A stretch of 50,290 bases of DNA, from contig JAGAPK010000013.1 of assembly GCA_017623295.1 (NCBI GenBank), positions 1 through 50,290 on the forward strand, read 5' to 3'. Below the pieces are notes generated by a model. It saw only the letters and a program-made list of their open reading frames with translations, had not been told where the DNA came from and ran no database searches. Numbering within the stretch: position 1 is the first letter of the stretch; each line of letters opens with the position of its first letter. The stretch comes from Lachnospiraceae bacterium (GTDB lineage: Bacteria > Bacillota > Clostridia > Lachnospirales > Lachnospiraceae). Of the stretch, positions 273 through 46,983 are shown piece by piece. The position numbers and the translations under genes were made by a program.

Positions 273-443
273 ATAATGGAAGAGAAACAGACCATTGTTG
301 CATTAGGTGCAGGAAGTATTACGAAGCGTGTTTTTTCGGATGGCAGAATCGAACGCTGTGACAATGTGAAAGATGTGGCTCTCTATATTGAGAAAATTGA
401 TGAGATGATTGAACGGAAAAAAGACCTTTTGGCAGATTCGTGA
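270..443 (+). pseudogene. hemZ: hemZ 3' remnant (coproporphyrinogen dehydrogenase, anaerobic-type radical SAM)
   Basis: The frame reads LIMEEKQTIVALGAGSITKR and continues to a TGA at 441-443, about 57 codons. This is the distinctive C-terminal segment of HemZ, the oxygen-independent coproporphyrinogen III oxidase-like protein of Firmicutes. The catalytic radical-SAM part is absent and an in-frame TGA lies at 267-269, so only a tail remains. An ATG at 276 has no ribosome binding site, so independent expression is unlikely. hemZ commonly lies just before hisS in clostridia, which fits hisS at 3.6 kb. The missing 5' part probably lies beyond the inserted element, outside the window. Confidence 0.7.
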
Positions 444-558: not shown

Positions 559-2445
559 ATGCAGCGATATGATGTAGAATATCAGAAAATAATTTTAGAA
601 TTGAATGAAGCCTTTGGAATGGAAAGAAAGACAGAAAATAATCTAGGGTCAATGAAGATTGGGAATCAGATATCTGCAAAATGGATTCCCCATGACGAGC
701 TGCAAAAAATAGAAGAAAAAATTTCCACTCCAATTGAAGAAATTGGTTATCTTAACAGTCAAGAGCAGGAATTGATTGAAGAAATTAAATTAGGGAAAAA
801 GCTTGGTTATAAGCAGATTGTCTGGAGAGTGGTTGGAGACATTAACCGTAGACAGATTATGCTAAGATATGCGGATTTTATACAGCATGAGAAAACGTTA
901 CGCACCTATTACCTCTATCGAGGACTGAAGAAACCTGTAAAGGTAGTGTGTGAAAGCAGAGAGAACGCATTTCCTATACATGATTTAAGAAATTTAAAAG
1001 AAGATAACCAGATATATATTTTTAAGAATGTATTAGCGGCTGAAGCTCGTAGGGAATACAATAGTGAAGCAGAATCAGTTGGCCGCATGCAGGGCTTTTT
1101 GATAGGCGATGATGAGATGTTAGTCGTTTTGTCTATTTACCCACATATATCATATTCGTTTGGCGCAAGGGCTATGCTTGGTAAAGTATTTGAGGGAATG
1201 CAGATGAAAATCGGCAACATGCCGATGGTGGATGATGTTACTGTCCGTAAGATGAATGAGCAGTATAAAAATAAGAGTATAGCTTATTGGGAAAAATTAT
1301 TGTCGCCAATCAGTAAAAGCATGTTACTTCCGAAAGCGGAAGGAGAACAGATATTATTAAATGAGAGGGAGAAGACTTGCCAACATAAGGAACTTGGAGA
1401 AGAACTGACTGGAAAATTAAATGATTTTTGCACGAAAAATAAGGTATCTGTAAAAGCTGCATTATTATATACATGGGCAAGGATACTAGGAGCAGCCAAT
1501 GATGAAGATAACCCGGTGTTAGCTGTAGCATGCAGTGGGGAGAAGATGAATATACTCCCTGTTAAAATAGACCGAGTTAATACACAGCCCGAACAACTTG
1601 AAGTTATTGATCAACAGTTGGAAAAATCGACAAAATACAGTTACTGTGAAATTGCAGATGTGGAATCCTTGATGGGTGTTTCTTTTGCGGAATATTTTAA
1701 AATGACACATAACTTTATGGAATTCAGGGAATTGGATAACATGGAGAATGGCGATATAAGGACCATTAGTGGAGTTGGTGAAGAGGATACCAATATTGAT
1801 TTGTTTATCAGCTATCAGTTGTTTACGGATAATATTGTAATCAGCTATAGCTCGAAAGGTGGAGTGAGTGAGTCAGAGCTTGCTGTGCTTCATACAATGC
1901 TCATGGATGAACTGACGTATCTATTATCAGCTGATGCTGTCAGAGTTCCTAAAGAGCCTGTTCAGGAATCCATAGATAAAGACGGCAAGAAGATGTATCA
2001 AGTGAAGCATGCACAGATTGGTCTGTATTTGAAAAGGTCAGGGCTGTTTGATATGTTGTCAGTGGAGGAAATTATGGAACTGGCAGAAACTTGTACCTTA
2101 AAAACATATTTGTCAAATGACATTGTAGTATCCGAAAAAAGCAGGATTTCCAATATGTATATCATTGGAGATGGAAAGCTGGAAGAGAGCATTATGGCTG
2201 TGGATGGTATGGTCAATAGTCTGAGAATCATGAAAGAGGGAAGCTTTTTTGGAATAGAAAGCTTGCTTTCTAAAAAAGAAGTAGAATGTACTTATACTGT
2301 ATTGACACCGCAGGCAAAGATTGTAGAAATAGACAGAGAGGTTTTACTTAATACATTAAATAAAAAGACAGAGATATGGATTGCTTTATTAGAGAAAGAA
2401 AATGAACACAAGAACAAGTTGCAGAAACTTTGGACTATGAGTTAG
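559..2445 (+). CDS. Condensation-domain-like protein fused to a cyclic-nucleotide-binding domain
   Basis: The 628-residue product has two recognisable parts. Residues ~80-460 resemble an NRPS condensation (C) domain: a first half ending near residue 215, the hallmark linker AYWEKLL at ~242-248, and a second half with an NFMEF-type motif. The catalytic HHxxxDG motif is degenerate: at 195-201 it reads PHISYSF, keeping only the second His (H196). Residues ~490-610 resemble a Crp/PKA-type cNMP-binding beta-barrel (LSNDIVVSEKSRISNMYII, later GSFFGIESLL). No helix-turn-helix follows, so it is not a typical transcription factor. No adenylation or carrier domain is present nearby. The next two genes encode anti-sigma-kinase-like and STAS proteins, so a sensory or scaffold role is more likely than peptide synthesis. 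That function is inference; the domain calls are from pattern recognition. Confidence 0.65.
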   Translation: MQRYDVEYQKIILELNEAFGMERKTENNLGSMKIGNQISAKWIPHDELQKIEEKISTPIEEIGYLNSQEQELIEEIKLGKKLGYKQIVWRVVGDINRRQIMLRYADFIQHEKTLRTYYLYRGLKKPVKVVCESRENAFPIHDLRNLKEDNQIYIFKNVLAAEARREYNSEAESVGRMQGFLIGDDEMLVVLSIYPHISYSFGARAMLGKVFEGMQMKIGNMPMVDDVTVRKMNEQYKNKSIAYWEKLLSPISKSMLLPKAEGEQILLNEREKTCQHKELGEELTGKLNDFCTKNKVSVKAALLYTWARILGAANDEDNPVLAVACSGEKMNILPVKIDRVNTQPEQLEVIDQQLEKSTKYSYCEIADVESLMGVSFAEYFKMTHNFMEFRELDNMENGDIRTISGVGEEDTNIDLFISYQLFTDNIVISYSSKGGVSESELAVLHTMLMDELTYLLSADAVRVPKEPVQESIDKDGKKMYQVKHAQIGLYLKRSGLFDMLSVEEIMELAETCTLKTYLSNDIVVSEKSRISNMYIIGDGKLEESIMAVDGMVNSLRIMKEGSFFGIESLLSKKEVECTYTVLTPQAKIVEIDREVLLNTLNKKTEIWIALLEKENEHKNKLQKLWTMS

Positions 2446-2486: not shown

Positions 2487-3077
2487 TTGAAATCAAACGT
2501 ATGTATATTAAAAGGAGCAAATCCTGACATTGAAAAGGTGTTGCAGGAAGTAGAGAAGGTTGCGGAATATAATGGATTGAACTCAAAAGGAACAATCCGT
2601 CTGAGACTGTTAGCAGAAGAATTAATCGGTATGCAGAATGGTATTCTTGGGTTTGTAAAAGGTGAGTTCTATATTGAAAGTAAAAAGAATACTTACACCT
2701 TTTATTTTCATGCGGATATTAAGACTGATTCTGTGACAAGAGAGCGCTTTGTTGACCTTTCTACAAATAATAGGAATGTTGCCTATAAAGGATTTGCAGG
2801 GAAAATAAGACTGGTGGCAGATACTTTAATGAATGATTCGAAGGAAGGAAGCTTTGATAATTACGACAGTTATCGTGCTGCTGATTCCACAGGGATTTTC
2901 AATTCGGATTTAGAATATGATAAAGTGTGGGCATTAAGTCAATATAGAGAAGAAGTGACGAAAAACTCAGCAGAGTGGGATGAATTGGAGAAATCCATAG
3001 TTGCCAATCTGGCAGATGAATTAATCATAGGGGCAACGAAGGAATATGTGGACATGATTGCTGTTAAGAAATTTTAG
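2487..3077 (+). CDS. Divergent RsbW/SpoIIAB-like ATP-binding (anti-sigma factor-type) protein
   Basis: The 196-residue protein starts at a TTG (2487) preceded six bases upstream by a strong AAAGGAGGT. It contains RLRLLAEELIGM at ~40-51, which resembles the N-box helix of GHKL anti-sigma kinases, and ends with a beta-strand motif (ELIIGATKEYVDMIAVKKF) shared with a Lachnospiraceae family often found next to STAS proteins. Clear glycine-rich G1/G2 ATP-lid motifs are not evident, so kinase activity is doubtful. It lies 41 bp after the condensation/CNB gene and 55 bp before a STAS gene, which supports a partner-switching role. The sigma factor or other final target is not in the window. Confidence 0.55.
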   Translation: MKSNVCILKGANPDIEKVLQEVEKVAEYNGLNSKGTIRLRLLAEELIGMQNGILGFVKGEFYIESKKNTYTFYFHADIKTDSVTRERFVDLSTNNRNVAYKGFAGKIRLVADTLMNDSKEGSFDNYDSYRAADSTGIFNSDLEYDKVWALSQYREEVTKNSAEWDELEKSIVANLADELIIGATKEYVDMIAVKKF

Positions 3078-3132: not shown

Positions 3133-3429
3133 ATGAAGATTGAATTAAACAAAAATGGTAATGCTTTGATTATTAGTGTAAGTGGAAGGTTAGATATAGC
3201 AGGGGCCCCTGAGCTGGAAAAGGTAGTGAACAGTGAACTGGAAGGGATTACGGATTTGACATTTGATTTTAAAGAACTGGAGTACATATCAAGTGCCGGT
3301 TTGAGAGTGCTGCTCATTGCGATAAAGAAGATGAATGCGCAAGGAAATATGGTAGTGAAACATGCGAATGATGTGGTGATGGAAGTGTTTGAGGTGACCG
3401 GATTTATTGATCTTATGAATGTAGAATAA
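3133..3429 (+). CDS. STAS-domain anti-anti-sigma factor-like protein
   Basis: The 98-residue protein is a single STAS domain of the SpoIIAA/RsbV type. The opening ALIISVSGRLDIAGAPELE and the central YISSAGLRVLL (51-61) are family signatures. The serine normally phosphorylated by the partner kinase would be S53 or S54. In known systems the unphosphorylated protein binds the anti-sigma kinase and frees its target. GGAG at 3121-3124 precedes the ATG. A terminator follows, so this is the last gene of the operon. Identity as a STAS protein is secure; the partner being the upstream gene product is inferred from adjacency. Confidence 0.85.
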   Translation: MKIELNKNGNALIISVSGRLDIAGAPELEKVVNSELEGITDLTFDFKELEYISSAGLRVLLIAIKKMNAQGNMVVKHANDVVMEVFEVTGFIDLMNVE

Positions 3430-3446: not shown

Positions 3447-3484
3447 CAAAGAACTTTTCGAATAATAACGGAAAGTTCTTTTTT
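3447..3484 (+). terminator. Rho-independent terminator after the STAS gene
   Basis: A 13-bp stem (3448-3460 with 3469-3481, one G.T pair) closes an 8-base AATAATAA loop and runs into a T tract at 3478-3484. It separates the signalling operon from hisS. Confidence 0.8.
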
Positions 3485-46236: not shown

Positions 46237-46983
46237 GTGTTAAGGTCCTATGCAATTACAGATATTGGACAAAGAAGACAACTGAATCAGGATTTTATAT
46301 ATCTTTCGGAAACTCCTATCGGAAATTTACCGAATGTTTTTATTGTTGCCGATGGAATGGGCGGACATAATGCAGGTGAATTGGCTTCCCGATATGCCGT
46401 AGAAACGATTGTAGATGAAATTGCGCTTTCCTTTGAAAAGAATCCGGTTATGATTCTTGGAAAAGCCATAGAGAAAGCGAATACCAACACAAGACAGAAA
46501 GCGAAAGAAGATAAACATCTTACGGGTATGGGTACAACAGTAGTCATTGCAACTTGTATCGGTAAGTATTTAGAGGTTGCAAATGTAGGTGACAGCAGAC
46601 TCTATGTTGTGAATGATAAAATAGAGCAGATTACAGTGGATCATTCTCTCGTGGAAGAAATGATTCGTATGGGTGGCATTGACAGGGCGGCTGCCAGAAA
46701 CCATCCGGACAAAAATATAATTACAAGAGCAATCGGTGCAAGAGATACGGTTGAGGCAGACTTTTTTAATCTGGAATTAAACACAGGTGATATAGTGCTT
46801 CTTTGTTCAGACGGATTGACGAATATGGTGGATGATGATACGATACAGCATGTTCTGAAACAAAAGATAAGTCTGAAAGAAAGAGCAGAGGAATTGGTTG
46901 CGATAGCCAATCAAAACGGCGGCAAAGATAATATTTCTGTAATTATTATTGAACCGTTAACGGACGAGGTGGAACATGATTAA
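46237..46983 (+). CDS. prpC: PP2C-type Ser/Thr phosphatase (Stp/PrpC)
   Basis: The 248-residue protein starts at GTG (46237) after ATAGGAGG. It has ADGMGGHNAGE (38-48), VGDSRLY (~115), CSDGLTNMV (~188) and GGKDNISVI (~227), the metal-binding aspartates of the PP2C family. It dephosphorylates proteins modified by the adjacent PASTA kinase. Its last 8 bases overlap the kinase gene, which supports coupled synthesis of the antagonistic pair. Confidence 0.96.
   Translation: MLRSYAITDIGQRRQLNQDFIYLSETPIGNLPNVFIVADGMGGHNAGELASRYAVETIVDEIALSFEKNPVMILGKAIEKANTNTRQKAKEDKHLTGMGTTVVIATCIGKYLEVANVGDSRLYVVNDKIEQITVDHSLVEEMIRMGGIDRAAARNHPDKNIITRAIGARDTVEADFFNLELNTGDIVLLCSDGLTNMVDDDTIQHVLKQKISLKERAEELVAIANQNGGKDNISVIIIEPLTDEVEHD

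Follow-up and report, generated by a model that had tools for sequence, protein, structure and literature searches.

Partner-switching systems are those of the RsbV/RsbW/SpoIIE type. For the condensation (C) domains of NRPSs, one report states that activity can survive mutation of the second His of the active-site motif (PMC11546977). The same report and a second one describe the X-domain of glycopeptide antibiotic NRPSs as a condensation fold whose active-site motif is altered and which recruits other proteins, specifically P450s, while itself forming part of an NRPS (PMC11546977, PMC6565677). In family 2B encapsulins, the cNMP domain is reported to lack cyclic-nucleotide binding (PMC12407261). 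In the open-access literature searched we found nothing that treats condensation or NRPS domains, or partner switching, together with cNMP, SpoIIE or STAS domains, and nothing that treats MATE, HATPase and SpoIIE together.

The window analyzed here, a stretch of 50,290 nucleotides from a Lachnospiraceae bacterium, encodes a 628-aa protein in which a condensation-like part is fused to a cNMP-type part. The original prediction knew of no described function for this pairing, and the open-access literature likewise yielded none. We tentatively interpret the protein as a pseudo-condensation scaffold or ligand-binding protein that is non-catalytic and that may, in this genome, be controlled by an adjoining STAS pair.

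Domain architecture and distribution

The reading frame of the 628-aa protein begins with ATG, and the sequence GGGAGGT lies closely 5' of this start (Table 1). Its matches to the Pfam families Condensation (PF00668; 34.0 bits against a cut-off of 30.6, E = 1.7e-8) and cNMP_binding (35.9 bits against 27.5, E = 7.3e-9, aa 515-602) both exceed their cut-offs, which bears out the fusion that had been predicted. A single-sequence search of solved structures retrieves bacitracin synthase 3 (E = 3e-9) together with cGMP- and cAMP-binding proteins. The profile of 14 relatives aligns across the two lobes of condensation domains of known structure (bacitracin synthase 3, E = 1e-65, profile positions 12-434), and the same profile matches CRP/FNR proteins (E = 9e-17). 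Judged from these sequence comparisons, both the condensation-like and the cNMP-type half are real.

Table 1. Coordinates of the features discussed, in the window unless another contig is given.
Feature	Positions	Strand	Basis or remark
Condensation-like/cNMP-type fusion protein, 628 aa	559..2445	+	ORF, Pfam, profile search
Stretch matching Pfam Condensation, aa 86-322	814..1524	+	
Degenerate HHxxxDG position, PHISYSF, aa 195-201	1141..1161	+	Alignment
cNMP-type domain, about aa 489-612, canonical Glu/Arg replaced by I566/V575	2023..2394	+	Pfam, alignment
C-terminal K-L-W, aa 623-625	2425..2433	+	(L/M)W near the end of 13 of 14 members
196-aa protein of an undescribed family adjoining STAS genes	2487..3077	+	TTG start as called
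98-aa STAS protein, anti-sigma factor antagonist superfamily	3133..3429	+	Pfam; TIGR00377, 68.4 bits against a cut-off of 53.45
Intrinsic-terminator-like hairpin, 13 pairs then T run, 3' of STAS gene	3448..3481	+	
PP2C protein phosphatase, 43 kb downstream	46237-46983		PP2C 55 bits; SpoIIE 28.1 bits (cut-off 25)
Consecutive genes for condensation, carrier and AMP-ligase proteins	L034 8399-11616 (G000:C4, window's genome)		Carrier between the other two

No helix-turn-helix family of Pfam matches the 628-aa protein, whose C-terminus lies 26 residues past the cNMP_binding match. A short motif, (L/M)W, falls within eight residues of the terminus in 13 of the 14 family members and also occurs near the end of an NRPS from genome G146; the 14th member (G224b) carries a C-terminal extension without it. 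Defense families gave no match to the 628-aa, 196-aa or STAS protein, and pattern scans of viral contigs confirmed no relative of the first two.

This C-cNMP family is rare. Among 397 genomes from the taxonomic family to which the window belongs, 12 (its own included) carry the full-length gene, in 14 copies altogether. This count comes from a profile built from the 14 members themselves, with at most three candidates scored per genome, so that absences are not strict; the preceding protein search had covered 299 genomes of the same family. With the same limit of three candidates, and hence with absences that are again not strict, a search of 392 genomes of the order returns a full-length gene only from the window's genome (G000) and from G190, which is already among the 12. 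One further relative, cut by a contig end, occurs in another family of the order (G651), and a scan of named-genome contigs adds one from a Clostridiales MAG (JAQXIP010000029.1). Both Pfam cut-offs are passed by seven of the 14 members, and the other seven miss one or both. In two members (G187 and G199) the condensation domain escapes Pfam altogether, and this part of them consequently rests on the family alignment.

Gene neighborhood and partner-switch proteins

In the window, the 628-aa gene is followed after a 41-base gap by the gene for the 196-aa protein and, after a further 55 bases, by the STAS gene, beyond which lies the terminator-like hairpin. We consider these three genes one putative operon; the original prediction had left out the second and third of them. 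Promoter-like matches were no more frequent than in shuffled sequence (16 against 13.5, sd 3.6).

Partner-switch genes recur beside the family. STAS, HATPase_c_2 or SpoIIE domains that exceed their Pfam cut-offs lie within 5 kb of five of the 14 members, against 0.51 expected from domain density when gene positions are taken as random and histidine-kinase-type HATPase matches are counted too (P = 9e-5). On the same basis, five members are found against 0.86 expected within 10 kb (P = 1e-3), and the enrichment is weaker when the window is left out (4 of 13 members, P = 1e-3) or when it is counted per genome (3 of 11, P = 1e-2). In one locus (G080), genes for a SpoIIE-dCache protein, an HATPase_c_2 protein and the C-cNMP protein stand in a row, and in another (G187) the member adjoins GGDEF-EAL and STAS genes.

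The 196-aa protein may be a very divergent RsbW-like protein, an assignment that comes from sequence comparison. An alignment of 13 members of its family has no relevant Pfam match and no recognized HATPase domain, and its profile finds no match among PDB chains. When this family was compared with HATPase_c_2 by hhalign, the probability was 2.5 with small alignments and rose to 39.5 (E = 3e-4) with 24 against 20 sequences; the STAS and cNMP controls gave 1.2 and <0.1. One homologue of the 196-aa protein carries a fused mechanosensitive-channel domain (L116 5764-7176). As for a phosphatase that could act on the STAS protein, the PP2C protein of the window is a possible candidate. No dedicated SpoIIE was found in the window's genome, which is 88% complete, and the single match there (19.4 bits in the genome scan) fits PP2C better.

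A different explanation of the locus is that the 628-aa protein is indeed a non-catalytic scaffold or ligand-binding protein but has its partners elsewhere, with the adjoining STAS pair being incidental. Nine of the 14 members, several of them near contig ends, show no Pfam domain of the partner-switch kind in the surrounding 5 kb. Some sit instead beside histidine kinase and GGDEF genes (G074), an HD-domain gene (G128) or 5'-nucleotidase genes (G199 and G241), and others have neighbors that were read as unrelated. The distribution of the 196-aa protein also speaks for this explanation. Of 299 genomes, 23 contain a homologue of it, that of the window among them, and at 12 of the 19 other loci examined, all of them without a C-cNMP gene, a same-strand STAS gene lies within 500 bases. 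Among the 12 C-cNMP genomes and G146, the protein is present only in G000, G135 and G023 (G074 lacks it), and only in the window does its gene adjoin a C-cNMP gene. Against an incidental neighbor stand the enrichment of partner-switch genes and the close spacing of the three window genes ahead of a single terminator-like hairpin, and we regard this explanation as somewhat unlikely.

Two observations concern the upstream edge of the locus. A 55-aa frame without a Pfam match (window 276-443) lies near the contig start; to our eye it resembles a HemZ tail, and a short frame before it resembles an integrase tail. An attempt to date a possible recent insertion between hemZ-like and hisS sequences found other genes upstream of hisS in G370 (within 8 kb) and a contig end about 230 bases upstream of hisS in G060.

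Condensation active site and NRPS context

The 14 members were aligned with five condensation domains from sampled genomes. At the HHxxxDG position the window protein reads P195-H196-I-S-Y-S200-F201 and keeps only a His of the motif, in a register that is fixed through the nearest relative, G074, and for which a one-residue shift is conceivable. The family alignment thus agrees with the degenerate motif and retained H196 that the original prediction had described. The G074 motif, PHMPYDT, keeps both His and Asp. PHxxxDG is intact, with H, D and G kept, in two of the 14 members, both from genome G135. The other ten members do not show the motif, the closest approach being KHSSDG, one residue short, in G134. 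A 13-residue deletion downstream of the motif is common to 12 of the 14 members, including the window protein, and is absent from the two G135 genes. Since the condensation domain of the G146 NRPS also has Pro in place of the first His, this particular change means little by itself.

The NRPS context differs between the window and some of its relatives. Next to the 628-aa gene we found no adenylation (A), carrier or other C domain, as had been predicted; ten further ORFs of the window, eight of them between 3587 and 18486, have Pfam matches to unrelated families only, and none is a carrier. The only other Condensation match and the only AMP-binding match of this genome both lie on contig C4 (Table 1). 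In G135, the surroundings of the first member include three A-T genes (two of them with an additional C domain), an A gene that stands alone, a gene for two carriers and a STAS-bearing gene of 401 aa. The second has a two-carrier gene on one side and, on the other, a MATE exporter fused to HATPase_c_2 and then an A-domain protein. The G190 member lies 2.3 kb from an A-T gene, with a STAS-bearing gene of 388 aa at a greater distance, and the truncated G651 relative is situated behind a two-carrier gene. The original prediction had named a complete NRPS partner set for this gene in related genomes as evidence against itself, and such a set is found in part, as the A and carrier clusters of G135 and the two-carrier gene of G651. 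Because the G135 members and the G651 relative are accompanied by NRPS-like genes, we infer that the condensation fold came from an NRPS context.

The G146 locus (L122, G146:C6, 4948-11400) encodes a 2150-aa NRPS with two A domains, two carriers, a C domain and a reductase-type domain, and with a C-terminal cNMP domain that scores 22.4 bits (E = 1.2e-4), under the cut-off of 27.5, and ends in the tail QRLW. An HATPase_c_2 gene precedes this NRPS gene, and a PPTase gene and two SpoIIE genes follow it. The G146 NRPS is thus apparently wired to partner-switch proteins.

Several other gene arrangements were seen at the loci surveyed. MATE exporters with a C-terminal HATPase_c_2 domain, mostly of about 600 aa, occur at L031 11386-13176 and L107 2074-3837 and as 15 genes in 13 of 20 loci, most of which had been chosen for an HATPase or STAS match. 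Genes for SpoIIE, STAS or A-domain proteins lie beside some of these exporters. A single terminal STAS domain is found in several proteins about 400 aa long (L029 4928-6133, L142 8045-9313, L123 6233-8746, L128 10363-11529), some of them encoded within or close to NRPS-like clusters or MATE-HATPase genes. At L143 2349-3645 (G135:C50), a STAS gene, an HATPase_c_2 gene and a 178-aa cNMP-binding-family gene without any further domain stand in a row.

The retained His raises the question of whether the protein is still an enzyme. It could be a free-standing acyl- or aminoacyl-transferase that acts through H196, uses the contig C4 carrier in trans and is tuned by its cNMP-type domain. P195 and H196 are kept in G074 together with an Asp, relatives in NRPS clusters have PHxxxDG, and the same genome has one set of condensation, carrier and AMP-ligase genes. 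The replacement of Asp and Gly, the 13-residue deletion, the loss of the motif from most relatives and the missing A and further C domains near the gene argue the other way, and they make such an activity improbable. The earlier suggestion that the fold serves binding or scaffolding and not peptide bonds is strengthened for the window protein by the 12 members without PHxxxDG, by the deletion and by the constraint described below, but it does not extend comfortably to the two G135 members, which keep the motif within NRPS-like clusters.

Conservation of the coding sequence

The nearest relative, G074, belongs to another genus and is 46% identical to the window protein across its full length. 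Between the two genes pN is 0.34 and pS, which is near saturation, is 0.74, and this difference indicates that the 628-aa protein is maintained. Both parts are kept by the 11 members that make up the window's branch, four of them shortened to 514-565 aa. That the gene is instead a decaying NRPS remnant without function would agree with the disappearance of active residues from both domains and with the profile search of the two same-genus genomes sampled (G060 and G370), neither of which has a match. An open frame of 628 codons, the identity to a relative from another genus at a pN well under pS, and the retention of both parts throughout the branch render decay highly improbable.

Ligand residues of the cNMP-type domain

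In the alignment from the solved-structure search, a cGMP kinase has Glu and Arg where the window protein has I566 and V575; we take these two kinase residues to be those of the phosphate-binding cassette that contact the cyclic nucleotide. The best NCBIfam match of this part is the cNMP domain of family 2B encapsulins, at 29.3 bits against a 400-bit cut-off and over aa 499-618 only. Because the canonical Glu and Arg are both replaced, the residues do not support a sensor function such as the Crp-type sensor of the original prediction would have. For the same reason very little weight falls on a regulator gated by a cyclic nucleotide or cyclic di-nucleotide, even with a cNMP fold that exceeds its Pfam cut-off and with GGDEF or GGDEF-EAL genes adjoining the G074 and G187 members.

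Domain phylogenies

A branch separates the condensation parts of the 14 members from 27 condensation domains that are either stand-alone or part of an NRPS, with a support of 95/86 when G651 is left out and of 85/80 when it is counted in the C-cNMP family; several end branches of this tree are long. A one-clade test of the 14 parts is rejected (p = 1.9e-5) when G651 is labeled an ordinary NRPS domain. We read this rejection as a labeling error, since G651 groups with one of the G135 genes (G135b) and also follows a two-carrier gene. In the cNMP tree, a branch supported at 95/93 separates 15 domains, the one from the G146 NRPS among them, from 11 CRP-type proteins hand-picked from nearby matches. 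That the family is set apart by a branch in both domain trees fits a single fusion.

A profile score for the K(L/M)W region was considered as a way of setting the family apart. The initial scoring used a profile that contained the scored rows themselves, and in leave-one-out scoring G146 (68.3 bits) and G224b (65.5 bits) fell below the best CRP-type proteins (78-79 bits), so this score was dropped. The place of G146 in the family accordingly rests on the tree and on the K(L/M)W tail.

Proposed function and origin

In the favored model, a non-catalytic protein under STAS control, the condensation fold would no longer make amide bonds and would bind either a partner protein or a ligand, the latter being small or tethered to a carrier. 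The CRP-like roll, which is without cyclic-nucleotide residues and ends in K(L/M)W, may serve as a dimerization or docking module. In the window's genome the 628-aa protein is probably made together with the STAS protein and its 196-aa partner, which is why control by STAS is proposed, and phosphorylation or release of the STAS protein could then decide between a bound and a free state of the C-cNMP protein. The non-catalytic part of this model follows from the loss of active residues in a coding sequence that is under constraint, and the part played by the STAS pair is suggested by the gene order and the partner-switch enrichment. In its favor we count the homologies, the losses of active residues in both domains, the trees, the constraint, the gene spacing and hairpin, the enrichment, the G080 and G146 loci and the PP2C of the window. 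Against it we count the rarity of the 196-aa protein and its not being a recognized kinase, the nine members without a nearby partner-switch domain, the lack of a dedicated SpoIIE and the retention of H196.

A broader and rather unlikely scenario is that a branch of the condensation superfamily left biosynthesis and took on the role of effector in a STAS partner switch. A single fusion between a C domain and a CRP-like K(L/M)W domain would first have served NRPS-like lines under partner-switch control, as the HATPase, STAS and SpoIIE genes or fusions in the clusters could reflect, and its dead descendants would now signal elsewhere. If this scenario is true, then partner switching would be a form of post-translational control of NRPS-like clusters in Clostridia.

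New here are an undescribed protein family neighboring STAS genes and a cNMP-type module at the end of a whole NRPS. If the interpretation is right, then an NRPS domain has turned into a signaling part while NRPS-linked relatives persist in related genomes, and the link between partner switching and NRPS-like clusters would be testable.

Comparison with known systems

The window protein resembles the NRPS C domain (PF00668) in that both lobes align by profile and two members of its family, located in NRPS-like clusters, retain PHxxxDG. It differs in being free-standing, in having one His of the motif and a 13-residue deletion, and in the addition of a cNMP-type domain. This added domain shares its fold family with the CRP/FNR domain and with the cNMP domain of family 2B encapsulins, and the encapsulin domain likewise has divergent ligand residues. 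Unlike CRP/FNR proteins, however, the window protein has no helix-turn-helix match and carries a K(L/M)W tail, and unlike the encapsulins it has no match to the HK97 shell domain.

Similarity to partner-switching systems lies in the anti-sigma-antagonist-type STAS protein near the window gene and in the SpoIIE and HATPase_c_2 genes that adjoin some relatives. The 196-aa partner, in contrast, has no recognized HATPase domain, and the proposed target is a protein with a condensation fold and not a sigma factor. By analogy, and short of a claim that it is one, the 628-aa protein would work most like an X-domain.
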